Assembly (NCBI RefSeq): GCF_030209375.1
Contig: NZ_JARVSC010000001.1
Coordinates: 372,001 to 436,000, forward strand
From: Plantibacter sp. ME-Dv--P-122b
GTDB taxonomy: Bacteria > Actinomycetota > Actinomycetes > Actinomycetales > Microbacteriaceae
DNA: 64,000 nucleotides
Reading direction: 5' to 3'
Both the position numbers and the translations under genes were made by a program. This document shows, one piece after another, positions 7,493 to 40,050 of the stretch. Every line of letters begins with the position of its first letter. The stretch's first letter is position 1. The notes beneath the pieces are model-generated. The model was not told where the DNA came from. It was given only the letters and a program-made list of their open reading frames with translations, and searched no databases.

Positions 7493-7531
7493 CACCCCTG
7501 ATCTGGGGGTGCAACTGCCCCCAACGGGGTG
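7493..7531 (+). promoter_or_regulatory. paired C/G palindromes upstream of the giant secreted protein (operator candidate)
   Basis: Two palindromic elements lie side by side: CACCCCTGATCTGGGGGTG (7493-7511) and GCCCCCAACGGGGTG (7517-7531). Their centres are about 21.5 bp apart, two helical turns. The hexamer TTGACT at 7555-7560, a weak -10 candidate, lies about 34 and 56 bp from the two centres. Similar elements stand at 21.1, 31.1, 33.0 and 40.0 kb, each before a polysaccharide or surface-protein gene. Confidence 0.5.
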
Positions 7532-7651
7532 CATCGTCGTCCCCCATCTTGCGGTTGACTGCGTGGAAGGACCATCCCCGCTGGCCCACGGCTCCCGACC
7601 GTGTGCGTCAGAGGTCCTACTCCTTCACCCGAGAAGACTGCGAGATACCCC

Positions 7652-10600
7652 ATGACCACACTGCTGTCGTCCGAGCCCGCGACCCCGCGACGGATGCGCC
7701 GGCCGGCGCGCGCGCGCCTCATCGCCCTCGTCGGTCTGGCCGCCGTCTCCGTGCTGTTCGGCACCCTGACCGCCGTGCAACCGGCCGTGGCCGACACCAC
7801 CCCGGCCGCCGGCCAACCGGCGACGGTATCGTCCGACGCGCTCCCCGCGCCGCAGATCAACGGCGTGGTCTGGGATCAGGTCGTCATCGGCAACACGGTG
7901 TATGTCGCGGGGTCCTTCACGACCGCGCGCCCGGCCGGTTCTGCGGCCGGTGCGAACACCGTGACCCGGAACAACTTCCTCGCCTACACGTTGTCGACCG
8001 GCGCGCTCCTCCCGTGGGCGCCGAACTTCAACCAGCAGGTGCGCTCCCTCGCAGCCTCGCCCGACGGCACGAAGCTCTACGCGGGTGGGCAGTTCACCGC
8101 GGTCAACGGGACGACGCGCTACCGCCTCGCCGCGTTCGACGTGGCCACGCAGACGCTGGTCGCCGGCTTCGCGCCCTCGATCAACTCGATCGTCAAGTCG
8201 GTCTCCGCCACCAACACCACCGTGTACGCCGGGGGGCAGTTCACGTCCGCGCAGGGCTCGGCCCGTGCCGGCGTCGCGGGCTTCGCCGCGTCGAACGGTG
8301 CCCTGACCGGCCTCGCTCCCGACGTCGTCGGCGGGACGGTCCAGGCGCTCGTACTCAGCCCTGACGCCTCGAAGATCGTCATCGGCGGGAACTTCACCTC
8401 GGTCAACGGCTCGAACAGCCCCGGGTACGGGCTCGCCGCGCTCAGCACCGCGACCGGTTCCTCCATGCCGTGGGCGATCAACTCCCTCATCCGCAACGGC
8501 GGTGAGGAGGCGTCGATCAACTCGCTCACCAGTGACGGCACGAGCGTCTACGGCACCGGATACACCTTCGGCACGGGCGGCAACATCGAGGGCGCGTTCA
8601 AGGCCGACTGGGCCGGCGGTGAGCTGCAGTGGGTCGAGGACTGCCATGGCGACTCGTACTCCGTCGCGGCCGACACCGACGTCGTCTACGTCGCCAGCCA
8701 CGCCCACTACTGCGGCAATGTCGGCGGATACCCGCAGACCGACCCCTGGGGGTTCCAGCGCGCGACCGCCTTCACCAAGGCCACCACCGGCACGCTGACC
8801 GCCGACCCGTACGGCTACTACAACTTCGCAGGCACCCCGGCACCGACCCTGCTCAACTGGTTCCCGACGATCAACACCGGCAGCTACACCGGTACCGGTC
8901 AGGGCGCCTGGGACGTGACCGTCGCCGGTGACTACGTGCTCTACGCCGGTGAGTTCACCCAGGTGAACGGCACGGGCATGCAGGGCCTCGTGCGGTTCGC
9001 GAAGGCATCCATCGCCCCGAATAAGGACGGCCCCCGACTCACCGGCTCCAACTTCGTGCCCACCGTCACGTCGTTCAGCCGTGGGACGGCCCGCATCTCC
9101 TGGCAGGCCAACTACGACCGCGACAACACGGACCTCACCTACCAGGTGATCCGCAACAACGTCACGGCCTCGCCCGTGTACACGACCCAGGCCTCCTCCA
9201 CGTTCTGGAAGCGCCCGGTCATGTCCTTCCTCGACACCGGCCTGACACCCGGGCAGTCCTACAACTACCGGATCAGGGCGACCGACCCGTACGGCAACTT
9301 CCAGCAGGGACTCAACGTCGCGGTCACCGTCTCCGAGGACGGCGTGATCAGCAGCTACCAGCAGTCGGTGCTGAATGACGGCGCGACCTCCCTCTGGCCG
9401 CTCGGCGAGTCGAGCGGGACCACCGGCTTCGACTGGACCTCGGGTGACGACCTGACCCTCACCTCCACCGGCGTGACGCGCGGAGCGGCTGGACAGGAAG
9501 CCGCCTCGAACAACGCGGCCACCACCTTCTCGGGCGGATCCAGCTCCTCCACCGTCCAGAGGCCGTCCCCGAACGTCTTCACCACAGAGGCGTGGTTCAA
9601 GACCACGACCACCTCCGGCGGCAAGATCATCGGCTTCGGCGGATCCGCGACCGGCAACTCCTCCTCCTACGACCGTCACGTCTACCTGGGCAACGACGGG
9701 CGCTTGAACTTCGGTGTGTACACCGGGAACACGAACGTCGTGACCAGCCCGAAGGCCTACAACGACGGTGAGTGGCACCAGGTCGCCGCCTCGCTCGGAG
9801 CGAACGGGATGCAGCTGTTCGTCGACGGGAAGAAGGTGGCCGCCCGGGCCGACATCACGAGCGGTCAGGTCTTCAACGGGTACTGGCGCGTCGGCGGTGA
9901 CAGCCTCGGCGGCTGGCCCAACGGCCCGAGCAGCAGCAACTTCTCCGGTGACATCGACGATGTCTCGGTGTTCCCGACGGTCCTGACCCGCCAGCAGGTG
10001 GACGCGCATTACGTCGCCTCCGGTCGGACGTCCACCGTTCCGGCTGCACCCGCTGACGCCTACGGCGCCGCGGTGTTCGGCCTCGACCCGGCGCTCTACT
10101 GGCGCCTCAACGAGACGAGCGGGTCAACCGCCGTCGACGCCGGCCCGACCGAGTCGAACGGCCTGTACTTCGGTCAGGTGACCAAGGGTGCGAACGGCGC
10201 CATCTCTGGTGTGGACAACACGGCGGCCCAGTTCACCTCCAACGGCTGGGACGAGGGGGGTGTCGCGAGTCAGTCGAGCTATTCCAACCCGACCAGCTAC
10301 GCCATGGAGGCCTGGTTCCAGACCACGTCGACCCAGGGCGGCAAGGTCATCGGCTTCGGCTCCAACCAGACCGGGGGGTCCGGCGGGTACGACCGACACG
10401 TCTTCCTGCGGCCCGACGGCAAGCTCGTCTTCGGCACCTGGACCGGCCAGGAGAACACGATCACCTCGCAGGCCGCCGTCAACGACGGCCAGTGGCACCA
10501 CGTGGTCGCCCAGCAGTCCGCAGCCGGCATGAAGCTGTTCATCGACGGCGCGTCCGTCGGTACCAACCCGCAGACCGGTGCGCAGGACTACACCGGGTAC

Positions 10601-13051
10601 TGGCGGGTCGGCGGCGACAACGCCTGGCAGGGTTCGGTCCCGTACTTCAACGGCAAGATCGACGAGGTCGCCGTGTACAACGCGCCGCTGACCGACGCCC
10701 AGGTCGCCCAGCACCGCGAGCTCGGCATCGGGCAGGCTCCCAACGTGTTGCCGACCGCCGCGTTCACGAACGCGGTCGCGAACCTCCAGCTCACCACGGA
10801 CGCGTCGGCCTCGACCGACACGGACGGGGTCGTCAGCTCCTACGCCTGGGACTTCGGCGACGGCCAGACCGGCACCGGTGTCACGGCTTCACACACCTAC
10901 GCCGCGGCCGGCAGTTACACCGTCAGCCTCACAGTGACGGACAACCGCGGTGGAACGGCCACCACCCAGCAGGCGGTGACGGCCGTGGCTCCGAACCAGC
11001 TCCCGACCGCGGCCTTCACGCCGACGGTCGTGAACCTGGACGGGTCCTTCGACGCCTCCGCCTCGGTCGATCCCGACGGGACGATCGCCTCGTACGCCTG
11101 GAACTTCGGCGACGGGACCACCGGGACGGGCGTCACCGCGACGCACACGTACGCCACGGCAGGCACGTTCAGTGTGAGCCTGACGGTCACCGACAGCGTC
11201 GGCGCGACCGCGAGCGTCTCGCACGACGTGGTCACGACGCTGGCTCCCAACCAGCTGCCGGTCGCGAGCTTCACGGCGGCGTCCACCGGACTGACGGCGA
11301 GCTTCGACGGATCGGGTGCCTCGGACCCGGACGGGACCATCGCCTCGGTGGCGTGGGACTTCGGTGACGGAACGACCGGCACCGGGACGACGACGACGAC
11401 CCACAGCTACGCGACGGCGGGCACCTACACGGTCACTCAGACCGTGACGGACAACCGCGGCGGCACGGCGGCCACGACCCTGAGTGTCACGGTCGCGGAG
11501 ATCCCGGTGGCGTCCACCTACGCGGCGGACACCTTCGAGCGCACCGCGAGCAACGCGTGGGGCACGGCGGGGACGGGCGGAGCCTGGACCGTCGCCGGAG
11601 GCAACACCAGCTTCTCGGTCGGCAACGGCACGGGCAAGATGTCGCTGCCCGCGGGCGGGACCCGCACGGCACGCCTCAACGCGGTGTCCGCGACGGACGT
11701 GACGGTGAGCGCGAAGATCACGGCCTCCGCCGTGGCGAACGGTGGCGGCGTGTACGCGTCCGTCATCGGTCGCCAGGTCGGGAACGCGTTCTACTCCACC
11801 CGCGTCTGGATCCAGGCGAACGGTGCCGTCCGCATCCAGCTGCTGCAGGGGGCGACCGCGCTCCAGGCGGTCACGGTCCCCGGACTGACGTACACCGCCG
11901 GACAGGCGCTCCAGATCAAGCTGCAGGTGACGGGCGCCTCGCCCACCACCCTCGGCGCGAAGGTCTGGGTCGCCGGAGCGACGGAGCCGACCGCCTGGCA
12001 GGTCCAGGCGACCGACGCCACCGCCGGGCTGCAGTCCGCGGGCCTGATCGGCCTCGGCGGCTACCTGTCGGGATCGACCACGAACGGACCGGTGACCGTC
12101 ACCTTCGACGACTTGCTCGCAGCGACGCCGGGTGCGGCCCAGCCGACCCCGGTGAACCAGGCTCCGACGGCGGCGTTCACAGCGACGCCCTCCGGCCTCA
12201 CCGCGGCGCTGGACGCCTCCGCCTCCACGGACCCGGACGGCACCATCGCCTCGGTCGCATGGGACTACGGAGACGGCACGACCGGCACGGGCACCACGTC
12301 CTCGCACGTCTACGCCGCCGGCGGGACGTATACGGTCACCGCGACGGTGACGGACAACGGCGGCCTCACGGCCACGACCACGCAGACCGTCACGGTCACC
12401 GCGCCGATCGTGCCTCCGGTCGACCCCGCTCCGGTGGTCATCGCGGCGGACACGTTCGCGCGGACCGCGGCGAACGGCTGGGGGGCGGCGCTGACCGGTG
12501 GTCCGTGGACGCTCGCCGGCACGGCTTCCTCCTTCTCGGTGAACGGCACCGCGGGCCTCATCTCGGCCACCGCCGGGCAGTCGCGCACCGCGCGGCTCGC
12601 CCAGGTCTCGTCCTCCGCGACCGACTCGACGGTGTCGTTCACGATCGCACAGGCGCCGACCGGCGGGGGACAGTTCGTCTCCCTGGTCGGCCGTCAAGTG
12701 GGTGCCGACAACTACGCGGCACGGGTCTGGGTGCAGGCGAACGGCGTCCTGCGTCTGCAGCTCATGAAGGGCTCGACAGCCCTGACGGCGGTGAACATCG
12801 CAGGCCTCGCCTACACACCGGGGATGAAGATCACCCTCCGCACACAGGTGTCCGGCGTCGGGACGACCGCCGTCAAGGCGAAGGCTTGGGCGGACGGACA
12901 GACCGAGCCCGACTGGCAGGCGAGCACGACAGACACGACCGCCGCGCTGCAGGCACCGGGGTCGGTCGGGGTGGACACCTACCTGTCCGGCACGATCACC
13001 AACGGGCCGGTCGTGGTGAACTACTCCGGCTATCGGGTCACCGCACTCTGA
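7652..13051 (+). CDS. giant secreted surface protein: beta-propeller, Fn3, 2 LamG, 4 PKD and 2 C-terminal modules
   Basis: The ATG at 7652 gives 1799 residues with a signal peptide (Arg-rich start, hydrophobic core, AVA cleavage near residue 47). By eye: a propeller-like array of repeats with YAGGQFTxVNG motifs (about 60-455), a fibronectin type III domain (460-560), two LamG/concanavalin-like domains (566-786 and 806-1024), three PKD domains (1031-1286, with AWDFGDG motifs), a DTFERT/WG module (1288-1491), a fourth PKD (1500-1585) and a second DTFART/WG module (1593-1799). Such domains bind glycans or proteins; no catalytic motif, LPXTG signal or C-terminal anchor is seen. A 1363-residue paralogue lies at 35.8-39.9 kb. 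A role as adhesin or matrix protein of the exopolysaccharide is inference. Confidence 0.85.
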   Translation: MTTLLSSEPATPRRMRRPARARLIALVGLAAVSVLFGTLTAVQPAVADTTPAAGQPATVSSDALPAPQINGVVWDQVVIGNTVYVAGSFTTARPAGSAAGANTVTRNNFLAYTLSTGALLPWAPNFNQQVRSLAASPDGTKLYAGGQFTAVNGTTRYRLAAFDVATQTLVAGFAPSINSIVKSVSATNTTVYAGGQFTSAQGSARAGVAGFAASNGALTGLAPDVVGGTVQALVLSPDASKIVIGGNFTSVNGSNSPGYGLAALSTATGSSMPWAINSLIRNGGEEASINSLTSDGTSVYGTGYTFGTGGNIEGAFKADWAGGELQWVEDCHGDSYSVAADTDVVYVASHAHYCGNVGGYPQTDPWGFQRATAFTKATTGTLTADPYGYYNFAGTPAPTLLNWFPTINTGSYTGTGQGAWDVTVAGDYVLYAGEFTQVNGTGMQGLVRFAKASIAPNKDGPRLTGSNFVPTVTSFSRGTARISWQANYDRDNTDLTYQVIRNNVTASPVYTTQASSTFWKRPVMSFLDTGLTPGQSYNYRIRATDPYGNFQQGLNVAVTVSEDGVISSYQQSVLNDGATSLWPLGESSGTTGFDWTSGDDLTLTSTGVTRGAAGQEAASNNAATTFSGGSSSSTVQRPSPNVFTTEAWFKTTTTSGGKIIGFGGSATGNSSSYDRHVYLGNDGRLNFGVYTGNTNVVTSPKAYNDGEWHQVAASLGANGMQLFVDGKKVAARADITSGQVFNGYWRVGGDSLGGWPNGPSSSNFSGDIDDVSVFPTVLTRQQVDAHYVASGRTSTVPAAPADAYGAAVFGLDPALYWRLNETSGSTAVDAGPTESNGLYFGQVTKGANGAISGVDNTAAQFTSNGWDEGGVASQSSYSNPTSYAMEAWFQTTSTQGGKVIGFGSNQTGGSGGYDRHVFLRPDGKLVFGTWTGQENTITSQAAVNDGQWHHVVAQQSAAGMKLFIDGASVGTNPQTGAQDYTGYWRVGGDNAWQGSVPYFNGKIDEVAVYNAPLTDAQVAQHRELGIGQAPNVLPTAAFTNAVANLQLTTDASASTDTDGVVSSYAWDFGDGQTGTGVTASHTYAAAGSYTVSLTVTDNRGGTATTQQAVTAVAPNQLPTAAFTPTVVNLDGSFDASASVDPDGTIASYAWNFGDGTTGTGVTATHTYATAGTFSVSLTVTDSVGATASVSHDVVTTLAPNQLPVASFTAASTGLTASFDGSGASDPDGTIASVAWDFGDGTTGTGTTTTTHSYATAGTYTVTQTVTDNRGGTAATTLSVTVAEIPVASTYAADTFERTASNAWGTAGTGGAWTVAGGNTSFSVGNGTGKMSLPAGGTRTARLNAVSATDVTVSAKITASAVANGGGVYASVIGRQVGNAFYSTRVWIQANGAVRIQLLQGATALQAVTVPGLTYTAGQALQIKLQVTGASPTTLGAKVWVAGATEPTAWQVQATDATAGLQSAGLIGLGGYLSGSTTNGPVTVTFDDLLAATPGAAQPTPVNQAPTAAFTATPSGLTAALDASASTDPDGTIASVAWDYGDGTTGTGTTSSHVYAAGGTYTVTATVTDNGGLTATTTQTVTVTAPIVPPVDPAPVVIAADTFARTAANGWGAALTGGPWTLAGTASSFSVNGTAGLISATAGQSRTARLAQVSSSATDSTVSFTIAQAPTGGGQFVSLVGRQVGADNYAARVWVQANGVLRLQLMKGSTALTAVNIAGLAYTPGMKITLRTQVSGVGTTAVKAKAWADGQTEPDWQASTTDTTAALQAPGSVGVDTYLSGTITNGPVVVNYSGYRVTAL

Positions 13052-13227: not shown

Positions 13228-13237
13228 CGGGACCCGA

Positions 13238-15729: not shown

Positions 15730-15831
15730 GCGCACACCACCGTGACGACGCCCGAGATGGGGGCGGTGGGGACGTCCCGGCACCCAATAGTCTGGTCATC
15801 CATCGACGGCTCTGCCGCGGAGAGGGAGCAC

Positions 15832-18546: not shown

Positions 18547-19605
18547 TCAGCGGACATCGGCGTGCCGTCCGCGCGTCGGAGCAGGAGCCGGTCCGCGGAG
18601 GAACCCGGGCGCTTCGTAGAGCACCCGTGCCGGCCCGCGCATGGCGGCCCCGCTGACGAGCAATGACCCGGCGATCGCCAGTCCGGCCAGCACCGGCGGG
18701 AGCCCGGGGGCCACGACCGCGATCGGTGCGACCCGCGCGAGCAGTGCGAGCAGGTAGGCCATGACGATGATGAGCGGTGTGTGGGTCAGGTAGACCGGTA
18801 GGGTGTTCGACCCGATGGACACCAGGCGCGGGATCCGCGCGAGCCAGCGGCTGACGGTCACCCCGGTGACGACGCCGAGGACGCAGTTCACGAAGTACAG
18901 GCCGGGCACCCAGCGCAGTCCGAACACGGCGACCACTGCGGAGACCGCGACCCAGGAGACCATCAGGGACACCAGGAGCGCCCCCACTCGCGCGCGGCTC
19001 AGGCGGAACACCGCGTCTTTCAGGTAGAGACCGGCGAGGAAGAAGAAGCAGTACTTGATCGAGCCGCTCCACCCGATGTTGGCGGTCTCCCACCCGCTGA
19101 GCGCGGCGGCCGAACAGACACCGGCGACCGCCAGCTGGATCCGCCAGTCGATGCGTCGGATGAGCTTCGCGACGACGAAGAAGATCGCGAGCGCCCAGAT
19201 GAACCACAGCTCGAACCGCGGCGCGATCGGTGAGACGACCAGGTCGCGGATCGTGCCGACGAGGTTGATCGGTTGTCCCTTCATCGTCAGCCCCAGGAGG
19301 AACACCGCCGAGCCGATGACCTCCCAGACGAGGAACACCCAGACGAACAGCGAGAGCTTCGAGCGCCACAGGGCCCGCCAAGAGGCGGTCAGCCACTTCG
19401 CGGCGAAGAGTCCGGCAAGCATGAAGAACAGCGGCATGCGCAGCGAGGAGAGGGCCTCGTTGACCTGACGCCACCCGTCGATCTCGAACCCGGCCCCGAG
19501 GAGCCAGCTCGCCGAGTGGTACGTGGCGACGAGGGTGATGGCGAGCCCCTTGCCGGCGTCGACCCACTCGAGGCGCGGCTTGGCCTCCGGCGTAGCGGCG
19601 GTCAT
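18547..19605 (-). CDS. membrane acyltransferase 3 family protein
   Basis: A 352-residue integral membrane protein with about ten hydrophobic helices and the acyltransferase-3 signature: EWVDAGKGLAITLVATYHS near the N-terminus, whose His is the catalytic candidate, and SLRMPLFFMLAGLF (about residue 55), then NTLPVYLTHTPLII near the C-terminus. These proteins O-acylate exported or lipid-linked glycans at the membrane. Its ATG overlaps the stop of the polymerase gene (ATGA), so the two form an operon. Confidence 0.87.
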   Translation of the reverse strand: MTAATPEAKPRLEWVDAGKGLAITLVATYHSASWLLGAGFEIDGWRQVNEALSSLRMPLFFMLAGLFAAKWLTASWRALWRSKLSLFVWVFLVWEVIGSAVFLLGLTMKGQPINLVGTIRDLVVSPIAPRFELWFIWALAIFFVVAKLIRRIDWRIQLAVAGVCSAAALSGWETANIGWSGSIKYCFFFLAGLYLKDAVFRLSRARVGALLVSLMVSWVAVSAVVAVFGLRWVPGLYFVNCVLGVVTGVTVSRWLARIPRLVSIGSNTLPVYLTHTPLIIVMAYLLALLARVAPIAVVAPGLPPVLAGLAIAGSLLVSGAAMRGPARVLYEAPGFLRGPAPAPTRGRHADVR

Positions 19606-20948
19606 CTGCGCACCGCCGACCGGGGGCTCGGCAGGGTGCGCAGCGCGACGGTCCCCGACGGATCGGTCCGGTGCCGAGTCGCCACCGGGACGAAGGCCAC
19701 CCCGAGGAACAGCATCGTGAGGAGCATGGACGAGTCGATCGGGCTGAAGCACAGGTTCCACAGCATCCTGATCGCGAGCCAGACCACGAGGGCGCTGGCC
19801 GCGCGGCGGGCGAGTCCGTCGCCGATGGCGCGGAAGGTCAGGACGAACAGGAGCACGACCAGCGCGGCCCCCAGGAGTCCGAAGCGCACCCACAGGTCGC
19901 CGATCATTGAGTGGACCTCGTAGCCGTTGCCGAACATGTACCGCTCGACGTACCCGTTGTTCGGCTGGTAGCCGATGAAGGACATGCCGGTCTTCGCCGA
20001 CAGGATGTCGGACAGGGTCGGGAGCGCTCCAGAACCGTAGCCGAGCGGACGGTTCGCGACGAGCTCGACGGTGGCGGCGGCCTCAGGCCTGCCGCCCACG
20101 ATGAGGTTCCCCGAGGTGTCGATCTGCGCCTGGGTGCGTTCCTGGGTCCGCTCACCGAGCAGCCCGCCCAGGATCACGGCCTGCGCGATGGTGTACACGG
20201 CCGCGGCGAGGACGCCGAGCCCGAGGAGTGTCCGGACCGTGGAGCCGCGCCCGCCCGGGCTCGACGGACGCAGTTGCCAGAGCACGAGGGCCGCCGTCAT
20301 CACGAGCATCGCGCTTCCGGAACGGGCGTCGTTCAGGGCGCCGATGACGCCGATGACGGCGATGACCGCGAACTCCATGAGCCGCGAGCCCCAGCGCCAC
20401 GCCAGGGCCAGGAGCAGGACGGTCAGCGGCAGGGACAGTCCGAAGCGCCAGACGTTGACGCTCGAGAGTCCGTTCCCGAGGGGGATGGCCGCCACCATGC
20501 CGAGTCCGAACCAGACCGCGACCGTGGGGGCGCCGATCACCGTACGCGCCCAGAGCAGCGCACCGGTGCCGGCGACGAGCCCCAGCACCATGAAGGAGTT
20601 CCCGGCCAGCAGGGTCTGGCTGGTGGACTGTCCGGCGCTGCTGAATGCGGTCAGGACGGCTCCCATGGCGATCGCGGCGAGTCCGAGGACGCCGAACAGG
20701 CGGGCCTCGCGGTACCGGGCCAGCACGGGGAGCCACACGGGGATGAGGAGGAGGGCGAAGACGTAGCCCACCTTGAGTCCCTGCGGGAGGTCGATCGACA
20801 TCGCGAGCAGGACGGCCGCCGTCGCCGCCGCAGCCCGGTCCATCCACGTGTGCGGTCGGAGCGGTCCGCCGGGCTCGACGGCCGTCGGGGTGGGCACGGC
20901 CGGGGGAGTGGCGGGGCGGGTCGCTCGGATGCTCGGTCGTGCCGTCAT
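19602..20948 (-). CDS. Wzy-like polysaccharide polymerase / O-antigen ligase family membrane protein
   Basis: About 448 residues with a Pro-rich cytoplasmic N-terminus (to about residue 30) and roughly eleven membrane helices. A large external loop (about 265-320) precedes a helix with NNGYVERYMFGNGYEVHSMIGDLWVRFGLLG, the region that in O-antigen ligase/Wzy proteins carries conserved H and R residues. It should polymerise flipped repeat units outside the membrane. A GAGGGGG ribosome site supports 20948. The promoter region contains a TAGAAT -10 box (21084-21089) and paired palindromes. The gene directs the first of two coupled cistrons; the second is the acyltransferase. Assignment as polymerase rather than ligase rests on context. 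Confidence 0.78.
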   Translation of the reverse strand: MTARPSIRATRPATPPAVPTPTAVEPGGPLRPHTWMDRAAAATAAVLLAMSIDLPQGLKVGYVFALLLIPVWLPVLARYREARLFGVLGLAAIAMGAVLTAFSSAGQSTSQTLLAGNSFMVLGLVAGTGALLWARTVIGAPTVAVWFGLGMVAAIPLGNGLSSVNVWRFGLSLPLTVLLLALAWRWGSRLMEFAVIAVIGVIGALNDARSGSAMLVMTAALVLWQLRPSSPGGRGSTVRTLLGLGVLAAAVYTIAQAVILGGLLGERTQERTQAQIDTSGNLIVGGRPEAAATVELVANRPLGYGSGALPTLSDILSAKTGMSFIGYQPNNGYVERYMFGNGYEVHSMIGDLWVRFGLLGAALVVLLFVLTFRAIGDGLARRAASALVVWLAIRMLWNLCFSPIDSSMLLTMLFLGVAFVPVATRHRTDPSGTVALRTLPSPRSAVRR

Positions 20949-21083
20949 GATCGCCCCCTCATGGCTCCGGTCGGATCGTCGGTTCGCCGGGGCCGTAGGG
21001 TTCGAGGACGTTCGGGCGTCGTTCGATTCGGGAGGGCCTGGAGTGGGGATGCGCCGGGTCAGCATCCTTCCACCGGTGCTCCG

Positions 21084-21089
21084 ATTCTA
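21084..21089 (-). promoter_or_regulatory. -10 box (TAGAAT) for the polymerase operon
   Basis: Read on the minus strand the hexamer is TAGAAT, about 136 bases before the start codon at 20948. The centres of the two palindromes at 21112-21152 lie about 34 and 56 bp upstream of it. Confidence 0.5.
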
Positions 21090-21111: not shown

Positions 21112-21152
21112 TTCCCCCGTTCGCGGGGATGTTGCCCCCAAAGCGAGGGGTG
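21112..21152 (-). promoter_or_regulatory. paired C/G palindromes upstream of the polymerase operon (operator candidate)
   Basis: CCCCCGTTCGCGGGG (21114-21128) and TGCCCCCAAAGCGAGGGGTG (21133-21152) are two palindromic elements with centres about 21.5 bp apart. The second is identical over 20 bases, in inverse orientation, to 31085-31104 upstream of another polysaccharide operon. Confidence 0.55.
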
Positions 21153-29367: not shown

Positions 29368-30632
29368 GCCAATCCTCCGGTGCTCTCGGTGATGCGTGTC
29401 GGGTGGATGCCGGCGACGGGTTTCGGGTTCCAGTCGATCGGCAGACGGTTGAACCGTCCGGTGCCGTGGATGGTCGCGCCGTCGGCCAGGCGCAGGGCGA
29501 GCGCCTCGTAGCCGTCGGCGATGGTGTCCCAGCGGTATACCTCGGCGGCGCGTGCCTGGAGCGCTCCTCCGAGGGCCGCCGTGCCCGCCTCGTCCAGCTC
29601 GGCCTGCTCGATGAGTCGGGCGACCTCGTCCGCCGTGGCGAAGAAGGAACCGGTGCTCCCGACGACCTCGTGGTTGAAGACGGAGTCGAAGCCGATGACG
29701 GCCGTTCCGGCACCCATGGCTCGGAGCAGCGAGGGGTTCGTGCCGCCGACCGAGTGGCCGTGGACGTAGGTCAGTGCCCCCGCGTACAGCTGATCGAGGA
29801 GCTCCTGGTCCCAGACCCCGCCGAGCAGGTGCACCCGGGGGTCGCTGGCGGCCAGGGCCGCGATGCGTTCGCTGTGCTCGGCGCCATAGGGTGCGGAGCC
29901 GACCACGACGAGCGGGTGTCGCGCCTCGCTGCGGATGAAGCCCTCGACGATGAGGTCGACGTGGTTCTCCGGTTCGAAGCGGGCGACCACGAGGTGGAAC
30001 GCACCGGCCTCGACGCCGGCACCGGAGCCGAGCAGATCCGTCCGAGGCTGTTCGAGGATCTTGGCGCCGTAGGTGAGGAGTTCGGTCGGCACGCCGAACT
30101 GCTGCTCGTAGTAGTCGGCGATCCCCGCCGCGTCTGCGATGAGCGCGTCGGCGGTGCGCACGGACCGCTCCTCCGCCCACCGGTAGTAGCGCTTGCCGGA
30201 GCCGCTCCACTTGGCGCGCTTCCATTCGAGGCCGTCGACGTGCACGGCGGTCGGTACGCCCTTGGCGCGGATGACGGGGACGAAAGGTGCGTTCGCCGCG
30301 TTGAAGACGAAGGCCACATCGTGGCGTCGGGTGACCGCCATGTGGAGAACGGACAGAGCGGTGTGGCTGAGGGTCTCGAGGACCTTCTTGCGGACGGCAG
30401 GCAGGTGCACGAGTCGCATACCGAGATGCTCGGCCGGTTGCTCAGCCGCGGTGCGGCGGCAGTAGACCGTGACCTCGTGGCCACGCGCGGCGAGCCTGCT
30501 GCCGATCTCCTCGACCGCGGTCTCGAACCCGCCGTAAGCCGCAGGGACTCCTCGCGTGCCGACCATCGCGATGCGAAGGGTGCCGTCGGACTGACGTCCG
30601 TGGGCGACGCCCCTGCGAGAGTGGCCAGTCAT
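29364..30632 (-). CDS. DUF1972/GT4-type glycosyltransferase (rhamnosyltransferase-like)
   Basis: The 422-residue product starts, after a basic leader, with IAMVGTRGVPAAYGGFETAVEE (about residues 20-41), the hallmark of the DUF1972 domain of rhamnosyl- and related transferases. The C-terminal half has the GT4 donor site: HLVVARFEPENHVDLIVEGF, and HGHSVGGTNPSLLRAM (about 300) at the E/N-loop. It is the promoter-proximal gene of a three-gene operon. The ATG at 30632 is the best candidate; a GTG at 30665 is in frame. No strong ribosome site is seen. Confidence 0.85.
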   Translation of the reverse strand: MTGHSRRGVAHGRQSDGTLRIAMVGTRGVPAAYGGFETAVEEIGSRLAARGHEVTVYCRRTAAEQPAEHLGMRLVHLPAVRKKVLETLSHTALSVLHMAVTRRHDVAFVFNAANAPFVPVIRAKGVPTAVHVDGLEWKRAKWSGSGKRYYRWAEERSVRTADALIADAAGIADYYEQQFGVPTELLTYGAKILEQPRTDLLGSGAGVEAGAFHLVVARFEPENHVDLIVEGFIRSEARHPLVVVGSAPYGAEHSERIAALAASDPRVHLLGGVWDQELLDQLYAGALTYVHGHSVGGTNPSLLRAMGAGTAVIGFDSVFNHEVVGSTGSFFATADEVARLIEQAELDEAGTAALGGALQARAAEVYRWDTIADGYEALALRLADGATIHGTGRFNRLPIDWNPKPVAGIHPTRITESTGGLA

Positions 30633-31048
30633 CGGATCGTCGCCGTTTCGCCGGTCGTCGAGCACTGCTGAATGGAGATCATGGGTGAGTTCGGGTTTCT
30701 CATGGGTTCGCTTCCGCGGCAGTGTGTCCGGGTCTGCGTGGCGAGGCGGGATGTCGACGCTGCAAGCGTCGTTGCTCGGATGGTGGGCGTCGCGTACCGG
30801 GTCGGGTGTCCCTGCACGACGACGATGGTGCAGCGCGTGCGCGTTCGCCCGGTACGTCCGCTTTCGGGTGCGGACGGCGTCGAAGGTCGATTCGCTCGGG
30901 TAAGCGTCACGGATATCGATGCACGATCGGGTTCGTGCGCGCGAGCGGCGTCATTGACCAGGTGAACCGACTCGACGGATTCGGGTGTTTCGGGTGTCGA
31001 GCGGCTCACCGGTTCGCGGTGATGGAGACGACTGTATCGAACTGTTGT
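30633..31048. other. long upstream region of the glycosyltransferase operon; no gene seen
   Basis: No reading frame with coding character was found here. On the minus strand a TACAGT hexamer at 31031-31036 is a -10 candidate, implying an unusually long (about 390-base) leader before 30632. A direct role of the leader is not apparent. Confidence 0.4.
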
Positions 31049-31104
31049 CCCCTCTGGAAGGGGATTTGTCCTCTTTTCGCAGGACACCCCTCGCTTTGGG
31101 GGCA
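31049..31104 (-). promoter_or_regulatory. three C/G palindromes upstream of the glycosyltransferase operon (operator candidate)
   Basis: CCCCTCTGGAAGGGG (31049-31063), GTCCTCTTTTCGCAGGAC (31068-31085) and CACCCCTCGCTTTGGGGGCA (31085-31104) follow each other at about 18-20 bp. The last is a 20-base exact inverse copy of 21133-21152. Confidence 0.5.
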
Positions 31105-31125
31105 TCACCGACAGAAGCCCTGGCA

Positions 31126-32721
31126 TCAGTACGCGCCGACCGGTTTCAGGACCACTTTGACCGTCTGCCACATGATCATCAGGTCGCCCGTGATGGACCA
31201 GTTCTCGACGTAGTAGAGGTCCAGGCGGACGCTCTCCTCCCAGGTCAGGTCGGACCGTCCGGAGACCTGCCACATGCCGGTCAGGCCCGGCTTGATGTGC
31301 AGCCGACGGTGAACATCCTTCTCGTACTCCGCGACCTCGCTCGCCAGCGGCGGCCGGGGCCCGACGAGGCTCATGTCGCCGGTGAGGATGTTCCACAGCT
31401 GCGGGAACTCGTCGAGCGAGTACTTCCGCAGGATGCGGCCGACACGCGTGACCCGCGGGTCGTTCTTCATCTTGAAGAGTACGCCGTTCCCCTCGCTCTG
31501 CGCCATCAGGGCGGGGAGCGCTGCTTCGGCGTCGGTGACCATCGACCGGAACTTGAACATCGTGAACCGCTCGCCGTTGCGCCCGACGCGCTCCTGACGG
31601 AACAGGACGGGGCCAGGACTGTCGAGCTTGACGGCGAGGGCGATGAGTGCCAGCAGCGGCGAGATGAGCAGCATGCCGAGGCTCGTGAGACCGACGTCGA
31701 GCGCTCGCTTCATGATGTGGTGGCCGCCGTCGAACTGTGGGATCTCCACGTGGATGAGCGGCAGCTCCTCGACGGGGCGGAAGTGGATGCGCGGGCCGGC
31801 GACGTCGGTGAGTCGCGCGGCGAGGACGAGCTCGGTGGCCGTCCCCTCGAGGTCCCACCCGAGTCGTCGGATGTACTCGGTGCCCCCGTCGACGGGGCCG
31901 GCGATGATGACGGCGTCGGCGGTGAGGTTCGCCGCGGCCTGGGCGACGCCGTCGATGTGCGCGATGACCGGGACGGAGCTTCCGCGGCTGGAGAACGGTT
32001 CGGCCGTCTCTTCGTCGGTCACGGCTGCGCCGACGACGGTGTAGCTCATGCTGTGCTGCTTCGCGACCTGTTCGAGGACGTAGGCGACGTCGTCCCGCTT
32101 GCCCACGACGACGGTCCGTGCGGTGTACTCACCGACTCGGCGACGGCTGAGGAGCCAACGGCGCCACATCCAGCGGGAGACGAGGAGCGCGAGTGTCCCC
32201 GCGGGGAGCGCGAGGATGAAGTACCCCCGTGCGATGTCGATCTTCAGGATGAGGAAGGCGATGGCGAGGATGCCGAAAGCGAACGCACTGGCGTTGACGA
32301 CACCCTTGTACTCGGCGACGCCGGAGCCGATGATGCGGCTGTCCCGGGTCCTGGTGAACCCCAGGAAGGCGAGCCACACGAGCACGATGACGCCTGACAG
32401 GAGAGCGTAGAGCTGCTGCGCCTCCGGGCCGACGGGTTCGTCTCCGAATCGCACGACGAAGGCCGCTGAGACGGCGAAGAGCGCGATCGCGCTGTCGGTG
32501 AGGACGACCCGACGACGGTATCGCTTCGACCACTCGCGTTGCGTCAGCGAGGCGACCGCGGCGGGGGAGGAGGCCGCGACGGCTCGACGCCGGCGCAACC
32601 CGATGGGGCTCGCGATCGGACCGGTGATCGGGAAGGCGTGTTCGTTGACGTCGGTGCTCACGCGCTGGTCCACCGTTCCGAGCGGTGCGGGAGGGTGGCC
32701 GCGGTTCGGGTGTGCGGACAT
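31126..32721 (-). CDS. undecaprenyl-phosphate sugar phosphotransferase (WbaP/ExoY type, priming enzyme)
   Basis: A 531-residue protein: polar N-terminus, four membrane helices (about 85-200), a Rossmann-like middle domain with TARTVVVGKRDDVAYVL, a further hydrophobic segment and the bacterial sugar-transferase domain. The latter begins IMKRALDVGLTSLGMLLISP (about 335) and contains FKFRSMVTDAE, KYSLDEFPQLWNIL (about 430) and GLTGMWQVSGRS (about 480). It transfers a sugar phosphate from a nucleotide sugar to undecaprenyl phosphate, the first step of repeat-unit synthesis. Start codons at 32721 (ATG), 32661 (GTG) and 32865 (GTG) are all in frame and none has a strong ribosome site. Confidence 0.88.
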   Translation of the reverse strand: MSAHPNRGHPPAPLGTVDQRVSTDVNEHAFPITGPIASPIGLRRRRAVAASSPAAVASLTQREWSKRYRRRVVLTDSAIALFAVSAAFVVRFGDEPVGPEAQQLYALLSGVIVLVWLAFLGFTRTRDSRIIGSGVAEYKGVVNASAFAFGILAIAFLILKIDIARGYFILALPAGTLALLVSRWMWRRWLLSRRRVGEYTARTVVVGKRDDVAYVLEQVAKQHSMSYTVVGAAVTDEETAEPFSSRGSSVPVIAHIDGVAQAAANLTADAVIIAGPVDGGTEYIRRLGWDLEGTATELVLAARLTDVAGPRIHFRPVEELPLIHVEIPQFDGGHHIMKRALDVGLTSLGMLLISPLLALIALAVKLDSPGPVLFRQERVGRNGERFTMFKFRSMVTDAEAALPALMAQSEGNGVLFKMKNDPRVTRVGRILRKYSLDEFPQLWNILTGDMSLVGPRPPLASEVAEYEKDVHRRLHIKPGLTGMWQVSGRSDLTWEESVRLDLYYVENWSITGDLMIMWQTVKVVLKPVGAY

Positions 32722-32916
32722 GGGCGTCGGAGGGTCCGACGGCGGTTCGGGTACGTCGTCATGAGGGCTGCTATCCACTTGTGGGGTCGGGTGTGATGCT
32801 GGTGCGCGGTGCGCACGGGCGGTTCGGGCCGCCCGCGGAGAACGCGACGTCACTCGTGTGCCCACGACCGACCGGTGAACCCGGTCGAGATGAGCGTCCC
32901 CCTTAGATATCCCTCA

Positions 32917-32922
32917 ACTGTA
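32917..32922 (-). promoter_or_regulatory. -10 box (TACAGT) for the priming transferase gene
   Basis: On the minus strand the hexamer reads TACAGT. The two palindrome centres at about 32954 and 32976 lie about 34 and 57 bp upstream, the same distances as at the polymerase operon. Confidence 0.5.
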
Positions 32923-32943
32923 GGAAGCGGGGGTCATCGGCGG

Positions 32944-32986
32944 ATCCCCCACTCCAGGGGGGTACCGGCCCCCAATTCTGGGGGTG
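32944..32986 (-). promoter_or_regulatory. paired C/G palindromes upstream of the priming transferase (operator candidate)
   Basis: ATCCCCCACTCCAGGGGGGT (32944-32963) and GCCCCCAATTCTGGGGGTG (32968-32986) are adjacent palindromes, centres about 22.5 bp apart. The second shares GCCCCCAA and GGGGTG with the copy at 21134-21152 at the same internal spacing. Confidence 0.55.
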
Positions 32987-33135
32987 AGGGCGATGCTGGA
33001 CGCGTGATTCCGTCGTCATTCGTCGATCTGGCCACGGACCCCGTCGGCCGCTCTCGTCACCACCTGGTGGGGGACAGCACGGGCCACCGTCGTCACGCCG
33101 GTGGTGAGTGGCGGCTCGGCCGGACGCGCAGCGAC

Positions 33136-33147: not shown

Positions 33148-33633
33148 ATGGATGGAGCGCGCGCGACGGATGGCGTGATCGCCGACGATGCCCGCGATCC
33201 CATGGCCGATTGGCCCACCGGGCGCCTCCTGTCCACGGCCTCGCGACTGATCGAGCACACCTGGCAGCAGGCCCTCGACGGCATCGGTGTCACCCACGCC
33301 GGTCTCATCGTGCTGCACCTGCTCGACAGCGGCCCCGCCAGTCAGAAGGAGCTCGCCCGACGAGCCCGCGTGCAGAACCAGACGATGTCCCGAACGCTCG
33401 ACCGACTCGAACGGGCCGGTCACATCGAGCGCATCGCCGCGGCCGACGACCGTCGTCGTCACGTGGTGAGCCGGACGCAGGCGGGCGACGAAGCCTGGTT
33501 GGCCGCACATCGACTCGAAGCCGACGTGTTCCCCGAACTGCCCGACGAGTCGGCGTTGCGGTCCCAGTTGCTCGCGATCATCCGTTCCGGCGAGTCCGCC
33601 CGCTGGTCGCCGGAGGACGTCGAACCCGCCTGA
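33148..33633 (+). CDS. MarR family transcriptional regulator
   Basis: The 161-residue product has the MarR winged-helix layout: an N-terminal dimerisation helix, then GVTHAGLIVLHLLDSGPASQ, the recognition helix region QNQTMSRTLDRLERAGHIER (about residues 80-100) and the beta-wing DDRRRHVV with the conserved Asp-Arg. MarR proteins repress nearby genes in response to small ligands or stress. The gene stands alone, divergent from the priming sugar transferase, so control of that gene is possible but unproven. It is followed by repeats. Confidence 0.87.
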   Translation: MDGARATDGVIADDARDPMADWPTGRLLSTASRLIEHTWQQALDGIGVTHAGLIVLHLLDSGPASQKELARRARVQNQTMSRTLDRLERAGHIERIAAADDRRRHVVSRTQAGDEAWLAAHRLEADVFPELPDESALRSQLLAIIRSGESARWSPEDVEPA

Positions 33634-35338: not shown

Positions 35339-35342
35339 TCCC

Positions 35343-35720: not shown

Positions 35721-35766
35721 GTCGCGCTCCGTCCGCGCCGGGCGCCCGGCCACCCGAGCGGTCCGG

Positions 35767-38700
35767 TCACCCGAGCGGCAGCACCCGGAGGTCCCGGAAG
35801 GACACGGTCGTGGTGGCCGCGGCGGAGCCCGAGAGGTACAGGCCGAGCCCCACGGCTCCGGCTCCCTGTAGCGCCGGGGTCTCATCGACCACCGCTAGCT
35901 GGAACGCCGTCGGTTCGAGGTCCCCGGTCCACGCCTTCGCCTCGATCGTGGTGCCGCCGGCGCCGCTGGTGCCCGTCGTCCGGGTCACGAGGTGGACCTC
36001 GGCACCCGCGCCCACGGACGTCCCGGCGAGGTTGGTCGCGGCGATCGTGCTGCCGTTCCGCTGCACCTGCACCTGGATGACGCCGGACGCCTGGATCCAT
36101 GCGCGCGTGACGTATCGGTCGGAGCCGATTTGCCGGGTGATGAGCGAGATGAACTGCCCGCCGCCGCTCGGTGCCTGGTCGAGCGAGAAGGTCACCGAGG
36201 TCTCGGCCGCTGCGACTGTCGTCGCCGAGAGCACGGCCGTCCGGGTGGCACCCGGGGCGGCGGCGATCGTGCCACGGTTCGACGAGACGCCGAAGCCGGT
36301 CCGGCCGCCGGCGAGCGTCCAGGTGCCACCGAGGTTCGCGTCACCCCAGCCGCTGGTCACCTCGCGGGTGAAGTCGTCGGAGACGACCGCCGCGGGCTCG
36401 GCGGGCGTCGTCGGGTCCGTCGGCGTGGTCGGATCCGTCGGGGTGGTCGGATCCGCTGGCTCGACAGGCTCGGCAGGATCCGTCGGCTCCGCGGGCTCCG
36501 TCGGCTCAGGGGCGGGCGCCGCGGTCTCGCGACCACCGGCAGGGACCGCGTCGAACGCGTCGATCGTGAACGTGACCGGCCCGTTGCTCGCCGAGGCGGA
36601 CACGTAGCCGGAGAGCCCGACCGCACCCGGCGCCTGGAGCGCCGCAGTCGTGTCCGCCGCCATGACCTGCCACTCGGCGGGTTCGGGGGAGGACCCGGCC
36701 CACACCTTCGCGGTGAGGCTCGTCGCCCCGTCCACCGGTGCACCGGCGACGGCTCGGAGGTGGAGCGCCCCGCTCGCCGTCAGCCCGTCGATCCGCTGCG
36801 AGACGAGCACCGTCGAACCGGCGAGCAGCTGCAGGCGCACGTCGTTCGCCGCGCGGTACCAGAGCCGGGCGGAGTACGCGGCGGAGCCGACCTGGCGGGT
36901 GATCACCGAGGCGTAGGCGCCGCCGCCGTTCGCGACGATCGACGGGGCGACGTCCGCGAGCACGTCGGCGGAGGCCTCGGCGACGCCGTTGAGGCGAGCG
37001 GTGCGGAGGCCTGCTGCGGGAGTCTGGATCGTCGCAGTCGAGTCGGACACCGCGAAGGCGGTCTTCCCACCGGCCACGGTCCACATGCCGCCGACGACGG
37101 CGTCGCCCCAGCCGTTCGTCGTGGAGCGCTCGAACGCGTCCGAGGCGAAGGGCTGAGCGCCCGGCTCCGGGTCGACGACCGGATCGGTCACCGTCACCAC
37201 CTGCGTGACGCTCGCCGTCGCCTGGCCGTCGTCGGTGACGGTGAGCGTCACGGGGTAGTCGCCGGCTGCGGTGTAGGCGTGGCCCGCCGTGGCGCCACTG
37301 GCGGTCGCTCCGTCGCCGAAGTCCCAGGCGTATCCGGTGACGGTGCCGTCGGCGTCGGTCGAGGCGGTGCCGTCGACGGTGAGGTCCAGCCCGTCGACCG
37401 TCGGGGTGAACGCCGCGGTAGGTGCCTGGTTCGGCGGCTGCGGGGCGATGCCGTCGACCCCGACCGAGTGGTGCGCGGCGATCTGCGCGCCGGTGAGCGC
37501 CCGCGGGTAGACCGCGACGTCGTCGAGGCGGCCGTTCAGGTGGTCGCTCGACGGACGGTCCGGCCAGCCGGACAGCGAGGTGCCGCCGACCGTCCAGTAG
37601 CCGCTGTAGTCCTGCGCCCGTACCGTGCTCCGGTCCTCGGCCTCGAGGGTGCCGTCGATGTAGAGCTGCTGGCCAGTGTTGCCGAGGACCGCGACCACGT
37701 GGTGCCAGGCGCCGTCGTTGACCGCGCTGGCCGAGCTGACCGTCCGGACGGCCCCGGGGTAGAGGCCGAAGCGGACGCGCCCGTCGTTGCCGAGATAGAC
37801 GAGGCGATCGCGGTTGCCGGAGCCGAGCGCGGTCCCGTTCGAGGCGCCGATGATCGGTCCGCCACTGGTCGACGTCGTCTGCACCCACGCCTCGAGGGTG
37901 AAGCGGTTCGTGAAGGGCTCGGTCGTCGCCGTCACCCCTCGTGCGTCGCCGCCGAACGAGGTCGAGGTGCCGCTGCCGTCCGACTCCGCGCCGGGCTGGT
38001 CGCGCCCGAGGGTCGAGCCGGTCAGCTGCAGATCGGCGGCGCCCACCCAGTCACCGCCGATCGTCCCCGTGCGCTCGTTGAGCGACCAGTAGTGCGAGGG
38101 GCTGTCCGCGAGGACCGTGCGGTCGAGGTCGGTGGAAGTGATCGGTGCTCCGCCGGCGGCCGTGAACGTCAGGTTGTCGCCCCAGGCTACGTTGCCGGTG
38201 GCGTCGGTCGTCTTCACGCGGTACCGGTACTCGCGACCGACGGTGAGGCCCTGGTCGACGAAGGTCAGGTCGAGCTTGTCCCAGAAGGACGACGCCGCGT
38301 TCACCGTGAACACGGGCGATGCCGTGTCGTCGTCGCGGATGACGTCGTACCGGAGCACCTCGCTGTCGCGGTCCACGTTCGACGGCCAGGTGACCTTCGC
38401 CGCGCCGTCGCCGATCGCAGTCACGGTCGGCGCCATCTTGGAGCCGCCGAGTTGCGGGCCCTGGGCGTTCGTCGAGACGGCACGCGTGCCGAACCGGGCG
38501 AGGCCCTGCTGCGGTGCGCCGTTCACCGTGGTGAACTCGCCGGCGTACAGCACGTAGTCGCCGCCTGCAGTGACGTCCCACGGCCCCTGGGTCACGCCGG
38601 TGAAGCTGCCCGCGTTCAGGTCGGGGAACCAGTGGAGCAGCTCCGTGGCCGGGTTGCCCTCGAAGTTGCCGTAGGTCCAGCCCCCGGGCGGGGTGTTGTG

Positions 38701-39858
38701 CGCGACCCGTCCGTTGCCCTGCTTCGAGAACGCGACCGCGCGGTGGTAGCCGTCGGAGTTGGGGAAGCCGCCGGTGTTGTCGCAGGCGTGCGCGTGCCCG
38801 GCCGTGTAGACGACGTCGCCGACGACCTGCACGGAGTAGCTGTCGCCGTGGCAGTCGGCCAACCACAGGAGACTGCCGTCCGCCCAGCTCATGCGGAAGG
38901 TGCCCTCGGTGGCCTTCCCGCCCTGGCTGTGCTGGTAGCCGACGCCGTAGACGCTGTCGGCGTCGGCGGACAGCGAGAAGACGGCGGACTTGGCGCCGCC
39001 GTTGCGGATCACGGAGTTGGCCGCCCAGGGGAGGACCGCACCGGAGTCGCCGGTGACGGCGCCCATGCCGAGTCCCGGCTCGGCCGAGCCGCCGATCGAG
39101 GTGAACCCACCGCCGAGTACCACCTTCGACGCGTCCGGGGAGACGACGATCGCCTTGACCGAGCCGCCGAGGACCACGGGGTTCCAGGGCTGCAGGGCTG
39201 CGTTCGTCGCACTGAGCGCGGCCCCGCGGAGCCGCTCGTTCTTCTGGACGGACGTGAAGATGCCGCCGAGATAGACGGTCGTGGAGGTGGCCGCGATGGA
39301 CTCGACGGTGGCGTTCACCGTGGGTGCGAAGGTGGACACGAGGGTCATGGTGGGGAGCGAGAAGGCGGCGACGCGATAGCGGGTCGTACCGTCCACCTTC
39401 GTGAACGAGCCGGCCACGTACAGGCGCGACTGGTCGGGGGAGACAGCCATCGCTCGGATCTGACCGTCGAACGACGTCGCGACGTCCGCACGCAGTTGAC
39501 CGGTCGCGAGGTCGTAAGCGAGGAAGTTGGAGCGGGCGACCGTGCCGACGCCGGCTGCGGCTCCGGCCGGGCGCGCCGTCGTGAACTGGCCGCCGACGTA
39601 CACCGTCCCTCCGGCGACGACCTGGTCCCAGACCACGCCGTCGATCTGCGGAGCGGGCAGCGAGTCGGCGGTCACGGTGGCTGGGGTGAGCGGATCTGAC
39701 GGATCGACCGGAGCGCTGTCGGCGACCGCGGCGGAGACCGGGACGAGCGCGCCGAGCAGCAGCGCCGCCGTCGTCACGGATCCCGCGAGGACGCCGGCCC
39801 ATCGGCGGGTCGGCCGCGTCCGCGACTCGTCGGATCGTTCGGTTCGCGGTCGACCCAC
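35767..39858 (-). CDS. giant secreted surface protein: beta-propeller, Fn3, LamG, PKD and two C-terminal modules
   Basis: The GTG at 39858, with AGAGGGG six bases upstream, gives 1363 residues and a signal peptide cleaved near residue 46. By eye: propeller-like repeats with YVGGQFTTARPAG and related motifs (about 60-455), Fn3 (466-569), one LamG domain (580-798), one PKD domain (808-889, AWDFGDG), a DAFERS/GWG module (903-1106), a linker of Pro-Thr-Asp repeats (1109-1153) and a second module beginning DDFTREVTSGWG (1156-1363). It is a shorter paralogue of the protein at 7652: the propeller, Fn3 and LamG parts align closely. No cell-wall sorting signal is visible. It lies at the other end of the polysaccharide region and has the same kind of upstream palindrome. 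Confidence 0.86.
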   Translation of the reverse strand: MGRPRTERSDESRTRPTRRWAGVLAGSVTTAALLLGALVPVSAAVADSAPVDPSDPLTPATVTADSLPAPQIDGVVWDQVVAGGTVYVGGQFTTARPAGAAAGVGTVARSNFLAYDLATGQLRADVATSFDGQIRAMAVSPDQSRLYVAGSFTKVDGTTRYRVAAFSLPTMTLVSTFAPTVNATVESIAATSTTVYLGGIFTSVQKNERLRGAALSATNAALQPWNPVVLGGSVKAIVVSPDASKVVLGGGFTSIGGSAEPGLGMGAVTGDSGAVLPWAANSVIRNGGAKSAVFSLSADADSVYGVGYQHSQGGKATEGTFRMSWADGSLLWLADCHGDSYSVQVVGDVVYTAGHAHACDNTGGFPNSDGYHRAVAFSKQGNGRVAHNTPPGGWTYGNFEGNPATELLHWFPDLNAGSFTGVTQGPWDVTAGGDYVLYAGEFTTVNGAPQQGLARFGTRAVSTNAQGPQLGGSKMAPTVTAIGDGAAKVTWPSNVDRDSEVLRYDVIRDDDTASPVFTVNAASSFWDKLDLTFVDQGLTVGREYRYRVKTTDATGNVAWGDNLTFTAAGGAPITSTDLDRTVLADSPSHYWSLNERTGTIGGDWVGAADLQLTGSTLGRDQPGAESDGSGTSTSFGGDARGVTATTEPFTNRFTLEAWVQTTSTSGGPIIGASNGTALGSGNRDRLVYLGNDGRVRFGLYPGAVRTVSSASAVNDGAWHHVVAVLGNTGQQLYIDGTLEAEDRSTVRAQDYSGYWTVGGTSLSGWPDRPSSDHLNGRLDDVAVYPRALTGAQIAAHHSVGVDGIAPQPPNQAPTAAFTPTVDGLDLTVDGTASTDADGTVTGYAWDFGDGATASGATAGHAYTAAGDYPVTLTVTDDGQATASVTQVVTVTDPVVDPEPGAQPFASDAFERSTTNGWGDAVVGGMWTVAGGKTAFAVSDSTATIQTPAAGLRTARLNGVAEASADVLADVAPSIVANGGGAYASVITRQVGSAAYSARLWYRAANDVRLQLLAGSTVLVSQRIDGLTASGALHLRAVAGAPVDGATSLTAKVWAGSSPEPAEWQVMAADTTAALQAPGAVGLSGYVSASASNGPVTFTIDAFDAVPAGGRETAAPAPEPTEPAEPTDPAEPVEPADPTTPTDPTTPTDPTTPAEPAAVVSDDFTREVTSGWGDANLGGTWTLAGGRTGFGVSSNRGTIAAAPGATRTAVLSATTVAAAETSVTFSLDQAPSGGGQFISLITRQIGSDRYVTRAWIQASGVIQVQVQRNGSTIAATNLAGTSVGAGAEVHLVTRTTGTSGAGGTTIEAKAWTGDLEPTAFQLAVVDETPALQGAGAVGLGLYLSGSAAATTTVSFRDLRVLPLG

Positions 39859-39980
39859 GGTGTTCCCCTCTTCCGGTGGTGGTGGCGCACCGGAAGAGCA
39901 GGCGGCCAGAGCACCACGCATCTGCTTCGGCACGTCTTTCGATGCTGTCAGTCCCCTGCGAGGGTTCCAAGCGCGGTGAT

Positions 39981-39995
39981 GCCCCCAATTCGGGG
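39981..39995 (-). promoter_or_regulatory. C/G palindrome upstream of the 1363-residue surface protein (operator candidate)
   Basis: GCCCCCAATTCGGGG is a single copy of the element; it shares GCCCCCAATTC with 32968-32978. A half-like CGCGGGGA follows at 40002-40009. A CAGCAT hexamer on the minus strand (39942-39947) lies about 44 bp away. Confidence 0.4.
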
Positions 39996-40050
39996 CGATC
40001 TCGCGGGGACCGGCCGGTGCAACGGGCCGCGACGGCGGACGCGACGGACG

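Follow-up and report, generated by a model that had tools for sequence, protein, structure and literature searches.

Do the genes that build the surface coat of a plant-associated actinobacterium share a promoter operator? The window examined here is a stretch of 64,000 nucleotides from a Plantibacter genome (Microbacteriaceae; 3.92 Mb, 14 contigs). A sequence-only reading of it had proposed that C/G palindromes before five polysaccharide and surface-protein transcription units form a common operator, at which a dimeric activator would bind twice at about 34 and 56 bp upstream of a –10-like hexamer. We checked the five places by direct reading of the sequence and by script, and found all of the claimed palindromes at their positions. 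Genes were called with a simple codon-usage caller written for this analysis, and their boundaries are approximate. Pfam matches back the names of the giant proteins (LamG, PKD), the priming transferase, the glycosyltransferases, the Wzz-like kinase and the flippase-like gene; the polymerase-like gene (19602–21065) had no Pfam match, and "polymerase" is the name given to it in the earlier reading. The priming transferase is 86–89% identical to those of three Plantibacter records, and an Rfam scan of the window returned three tRNAs. The features are as follows, with palindrome sequences given on the coding strand.

7495–7509, plus strand: distal palindrome (CACCCCTGATCTGGGGGTG) before the giant LamG/PKD protein gene 7601–13051 (giant A)
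7518–7529, plus strand: proximal palindrome (TGCCCCCAACGGGGTG) before the giant A gene; TTGACT at 7555–7560 is a poor –10
15751–15763, plus strand: tentative extra site CCCGAGATGGGGG, with TANNNT 24 bp on, before a GT2 glycosyltransferase gene (called start 15832)
21135–21150, minus strand: distal palindrome (CACCCCTCGCTTTGGGGGCA) before the polymerase-like gene 19602–21065
21114–21128, minus strand: proximal palindrome (CCCCGCGAACGGGGG) before the polymerase-like gene; its G-run ends 24 bp before TAGAAT (21084–21089)
30666–31030, minus strand: glycosyltransferase operon leader of 365 bases, whose RNA strand carries ACCCGA seven times
31087–31102, minus strand: distal palindrome (TGCCCCCAAAGCGAGGGGTG) of the glycosyltransferase operon promoter, present in 7/7 genomes of the genus
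31068–31085, minus strand: weak middle palindrome GTCCTGCGAAAAGAGGAC (GTCCT..AGGAC) of the same promoter
31049–31063, minus strand: proximal palindrome (CCCCTTCCAGAGGGG) of the same promoter; TACAGT (31031–31036) is only 12 bp on, off the family geometry
32969–32984, minus strand: distal palindrome (CACCCCCAGAATTGGGGG) before the priming glycosyltransferase gene 31126–32865
32946–32962, minus strand: proximal palindrome (CCCCCCTGGAGTGGGGG) before the priming glycosyltransferase gene; its G-run ends 23 bp before TACAGT (32917–32922), the family-wide class II position
33148–33633, plus strand: MarR-family regulator gene (Pfam PF12802/PF01047), separated by the double operator from the divergent priming transferase gene
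39982–39995, minus strand: single palindrome, one copy, before the giant LamG/PKD protein gene 35767–39933 (giant B), with no TANNNT at 22–26

The identity over 20 bases reported for 21133–21152 and 31085–31104 is real, the two being reverse complements, and the three named hexamers exist (TTGACT at 7555–7560 on the plus strand, TAGAAT at 21084–21089 and TACAGT at 32917–32922 on the minus strand). The proposed pairing also stands at three loci, where the two copies lie about 22 bp apart. However, the –10 holds up at only two of these, with TANNNT 23 and 24 bp on, and at the third the hexamer is TTGACT. Only two of the five promoters in the window thus fit the –10 distance, and this part of the shared-operator claim must be narrowed. 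The glycosyltransferase promoter with its three palindromes and the single giant B site lie off this geometry and may have another mode of action. The tentative site at 15751–15763 was detected only when the runs were relaxed to three bases, and the same relaxed scan gave one match in 400 kb of background DNA.

We asked whether such palindromes are expected in a genome of this kind. The pattern GCCCCCAAN{0,9}GGGG had six matches in the 3.92-Mb genome and two for the reversed-pattern control; five of the six were the loci described here and the sixth lay within a predicted gene. Over the seven genomes of the genus, the same pattern gave 32 matches compared with 34 for the control. CCCCCN{3,6}GGGGG gave 7 forward and 6 control matches; the forward matches represent six distinct places, namely two priming-transferase sites, three places without TANNNT at 22–26 and one homopolymer run at a contig end, which was left unscored. 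Because the number of palindromes per genome is close to that of the reversed control, we set the raw motif count aside as uninformative.

Placement gave a different picture. As background we used 20 stretches of 20 kb (400 kb) from three contigs of the same genome, which contained 13 C..G palindromes; three lay in the 39.9 kb between genes, with no pair at 19–25 bp and no palindrome followed by TANNNT 22–26 bp downstream. Between 7 and 41 kb of the window there were also 13 C..G palindromes, ten of them intergenic in 3.1 kb, with three pairs and two palindromes that had TANNNT at 22–26. Intergenic C..G palindromes are therefore about 40 times rarer in the background than in this part of the window, and an equal density before unrelated genes was not seen in the 400 kb. 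The palindromes are beyond chance by location and geometry, not by raw count.

Within Plantibacter, the glycosyltransferase operon site GCCCCCAAAGCGAGGGG is kept in all seven genomes, and the distal priming-transferase site occurs in its strict form in six of seven, with a variant in the seventh. In the priming-transferase promoter the sites are near-invariant and the linker between the two copies is variable. The giant A pair was found in one other genome.

We then turned to the upstream regions of priming-transferase homologues, which are present in 212 of 299 genomes of the family. Ninety upstream regions (30 loci from the homologue search and 60 more, hand-chosen to cover genera) contained 120 C..G palindromes compared with 38 of the G..C form. 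Thirteen of the 90 (five further Plantibacter and eight repeats of the same place) were dropped before loci were counted, so that 77 loci in 43 genera remained. To count palindromes, we added 21 named loci and left out ten further Plantibacter rows, giving 101 palindromes. TANNNT began 23, 24, 25 and 26 bp past the last G in 16, 12, 13 and 4 of them, where 0.2 per offset was expected, and at 22–26 bp in 46 of the 101, a strong family-wide fit to the –10. The complete element, that is, a palindrome with TANNNT 22–26 bp after the G-run, was found at 43 of 77 loci and in 27 of 43 genera. The same scan gave 0/77 with G..C halves, 0/77 when reversed and 2/77 on the other strand. Applied to 20 regions that precede homologues in eight other families of the order, it gave 0/20, and these regions contained four C..G and four G..C palindromes in all. 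With runs of three or more, the element was found at 51 of 77 loci and in 29 of 43 genera, and the controls gave 2, 1 and 3 of 77 and 1/20. The strict element is absent from 34 of 77 loci, and relaxing the runs to three or more leaves 26 of 77 without the element. Given the spread over genera and the near-empty controls, chance has little room, although the loci are related and not independent.

When the family was searched for the strict symmetric palindrome CACCCCCN{3,6}GGGGGTG, 27 of 120 genomes had a match. Among the 27 loci read, two were priming-transferase promoters, both from Labedella (L067, L068) and both without TANNNT at 22–26; in the Labedella priming-transferase promoter TANNNT is 35 bp on from the palindrome. 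The –10 geometry was seen at two of the 27 loci (L079 and L081), the former a FucU-like promoter.

To learn which genes follow the element elsewhere, we surveyed 25 named loci (471 kb), in which it occurred 24 times. Ten elements stood before the priming transferase, three (at two loci) before homologues of the giant LamG/PKD protein, two before homologues of the polymerase-like gene (in Labedella) and three (L043, L044, L045) before DUF1972/GT4 homologues 33–35% identical to the window gene, L044 and L045 being near-copies. Two others preceded a divergent zinc peptidase and four preceded other genes. The contig of L044 is filed under Aeromicrobium and is near-identical to the Frigoribacterium contig of L045, so its bin label is doubtful. 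The statement that the sites precede polysaccharide and surface-protein units is thus borne out beyond the window: four of its target classes recur with the element in other genera. The element was also found before an M23 peptidase in two species of genus g80 (L194, L285). In three genomes of two genera (L346, L357, L358) it precedes a gene with a TTG start, assigned to the RbsD/FucU family by Pfam for one of the three and divergent from a CsoR gene, with TATGCT at 23–24. With conservation in 27 of the 43 genera sampled, before the same gene classes, these comparisons confirm at the level of sequence a conserved putative promoter operator of surface-coat genes across much of the Microbacteriaceae.

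We aligned 46 such promoters. Their consensus is ACCCCC(C/G)AAA(T)GGGGG, followed by 22–26 unconserved bases and TANNNT, with a C after the hexamer in 70%. The palindrome measures 12–17 bp from the first C to the last G, 15 being the commonest length and 14–16 bp covering 38 of the 46. Upstream of the –10, no conserved –35 hexamer was found in the 46 aligned promoters. If the –10 begins at –12, the palindrome centre lies at about –43.5. On the coding strand the spacer of the palindrome is A-rich (A 102, T 65), and the element therefore has a direction. The gene on its far side is not constant: it encodes a zinc peptidase at six loci, a MarR protein at three and other products elsewhere. Since it differs between genera, the element belongs to the polysaccharide promoter. 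Another palindrome was present within 90 bp at 17 of the 46 loci: in ten it lay 51.5–61 bp downstream, in Plantibacter 22.5 bp upstream, and in the rest the distance varied. In the ten with the downstream copy (L039, L041, L043, L049, L050, L125, L129, L132, L144 and L147), this copy sits at about +10 to +20 relative to the inferred start, and in six of them its centre is T-rich, an inverted orientation.

This arrangement resembles that of class II promoters, in which the activator binds at a fixed distance with its centre at about –40 to –45 and the –35 is weak or absent; CRP is centred at –41.5 and LuxR at –42.5. The element is alike in its palindrome just above the place of the –35 and in the missing –35, whereas the site sequences of CRP and LuxR differ from the C/G palindrome. 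We consider that the palindromes are probably the binding sites, as predicted from their sequence and position, of one undescribed activator of surface-polysaccharide and giant surface-protein genes in Microbacteriaceae. A protein, probably a dimer, would bind the palindrome and touch RNA polymerase in the class II manner, and promoters without a –35 would depend on it. In Plantibacter, another dimer could sit on the same side of the DNA at the second copy, 22–22.5 bp (two helical turns) upstream. The proposal of a common operator for a dimeric activator is supported, but the double site at 34 and 56 bp does not generalize: paired copies 22 bp apart occur mainly in Plantibacter, and most genera have one site near –43.5. 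The A-rich core, which a symmetric dimer does not require, speaks against the activator, as do the many C5..G5 palindromes elsewhere in the family that lie off the geometry, the 34 of 77 loci without the strict element and the window promoters that do not fit the –10 distance.

The directional core might instead be read by a sigma adapter of the WhiB-like or PafBC-like kind, not by a dimeric activator. WhiB7, WhiB3 and PafBC activate next to the –35 of actinobacterial housekeeping promoters, and here no –35 is visible, the element abuts its place and the A-rich core gives it a direction. However, the C-run and the G-run are both kept, as two-fold symmetry predicts. To our knowledge, the known sites of WhiB7/WhiB3 and PafBC are not C/G palindromes, and we know of no adapter site of this form. 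We regard an adapter as unlikely. If the palindromes were transcription terminators, or had arisen by chance in a GC-rich genome, this would suit the raw counts near the reversed-pattern control, as well as the many strict palindromes in the family that resemble terminators between genes. The sites in the window, however, are followed by no T-run and lie upstream of genes, above –10 hexamers, and the geometry was found nowhere in 400 kb of background and at 0–2 of 77 loci in the controls. For the priming transferase this explanation is contradicted; it may hold for the single giant B site, but overall we consider it extremely unlikely.

Which protein might bind the operator can be narrowed by asking which genes travel with it. 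It had been stated that no regulator gene is obvious in the window; a MarR-type gene (33148–33633) does adjoin the operator, but it is a poor candidate for a family-wide regulator. Its product might regulate both the MarR gene and the priming transferase by binding the double operator that separates them, as the divergent arrangement would suggest, and relatives of this gene also take the divergent position at two loci in genus g71 (L110, L168). Close homologues (E below 1e-30) were nevertheless found in only 25 of 120 genomes of the family and are missing from at least 15 element-bearing genomes (for example G027, G043, G084, G085, G034, G010 and G068). Because the gene does not travel with the operator, we rejected it as the general regulator; its control of both genes seems quite improbable, and the protein could have a local role. 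A CsoR/RcnR-family repressor is suggested by the similar letters, since known sites of this family are likewise palindromes of a C-tract and a G-tract, and CsoR-family genes were present in 30 of 32 element-bearing genomes tested. They were present in 8 of 8 genomes lacking the element (38 of 40 in all), and two element-bearing genomes were without one (G127, with two contigs and 99% complete, and G128, with 290 contigs). Moreover, the palindromes beside the CsoR-family genes of the family (at nine of 20 loci read) measure 10–11 bp compared with mostly 14–16 bp here, and in five of the nine TANNNT begins 0–8 bp after the palindrome, several sites thus lying on the –10 in a repressor layout, whereas the operator here is 22–26 bp away. 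One of the two sites of L353 is an exception, with TANNNT at 23. No CsoR-family gene was called in the window, and the two such genes of this genome are on other contigs. That the operator belongs to this family of repressors is, in our judgement, very unlikely. The short palindromes, of the form ATACCCC-N1..3-GGGGGTAT (L350, L351, L353, L354, L355, L357, L360, L361 and L362), are probably the own operators of the CsoR genes, judging from their place.

Response regulators of the NarL/FixJ type are dimeric and can act in the class II manner, and their known sites (the 7-2-7 sites of NarL, the DosR box) differ from the element in length and letters. A NarL-type gene near the priming transferase was rejected as a candidate: it was found there in three Amnibacterium-like loci only (L046, L053, L054), each genome has several members of its family, and we found nothing to link it to the site. 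The recurrent neighbour genes as a whole included no fitting candidate. In the open-access papers searched, we found no regulator or operator of such a form in Microbacteriaceae. These bacteria are common on plants, in soil and in the cold, and the conserved operator offers a route to how they switch the synthesis of their polysaccharide coat and surface proteins: it provides a 50-bp bait for its protein and a motif to define the regulon.

The seven ACCCGA in the leader of the glycosyltransferase operon raise the possibility that these genes are also controlled at the RNA level. We collected the leaders of 42 of the promoters (13.4 kb), delimiting them by the homology match instead of a known start codon. 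ACCCGA occurred 65 times on the RNA strand, where 5–7 were expected, and five times on the other strand (about tenfold); it was present in 30 of the 42 leaders and ranked first among its 60 anagrams, whose mean was 9.4. No such enrichment was seen in the upstream regions of other families (5 compared with 10). The strand bias suggests a signal that would act at the RNA level. A hairpin ACCTGTA-AACCCGAAA-TGCAGG around ACCCGA was found in 30 distinct sequences, but the search pattern itself dictates the stem, and the stem in their alignment is accordingly no evidence of covariation. Strong stems were found at 53 of 127 CCCGA in a loose test, compared with 17–25 with shuffled flanks, and at 12 of 65 ACCCGA in a stricter test, compared with 42 of 406 in the genome background (P = 0.09); we claim only the sequence enrichment. 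At the thresholds of Rfam itself no match was obtained, and two sub-threshold matches in 30600–33000 were judged to be chance. We put forward tentatively, as a possibility more doubtful than not, that an undescribed coat regulator confined to Microbacteriaceae, as sampled, acts through the C/G palindrome together with a factor reading the leader ACCCGA. Exopolysaccharide would then be controlled in a paired way, at the DNA and at the RNA, by a system for which Rfam has no match. Under such paired control, the coat set would comprise the priming transferase, the polymerase, the glycosyltransferases and the giant LamG/PKD proteins, joined in some genera by the M23 hydrolase and the FucU-like gene.

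Palindromes without a fitting –10 were also seen in the family near surface proteins, a subtilase and a sigma-factor gene whose flagellar setting was read by eye; we claim no regulon size, since terminator-like palindromes are numerous in those genomes. Flagellin was looked for in the Plantibacter genome and not found. Between the sigma-factor gene of the flagellar cluster and a gene taken by eye for flgN, a double palindrome with copies about 21–22 bp apart is present in both species (L195 in G085, L273 in G198). Another double palindrome (L204) lacks the –10 geometry; downstream of it lies a gene (L289:187–2421) for a large regulator that combines OmpR-type DNA binding with a BTAD domain. 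Finally, a 17-bp palindrome, CACCCCCTGTGGGGGTG, occurs three times in one genome (G065; C2:863928, C7:111310 and C9:24), twice near contig ends, and is perhaps part of a repeated element.
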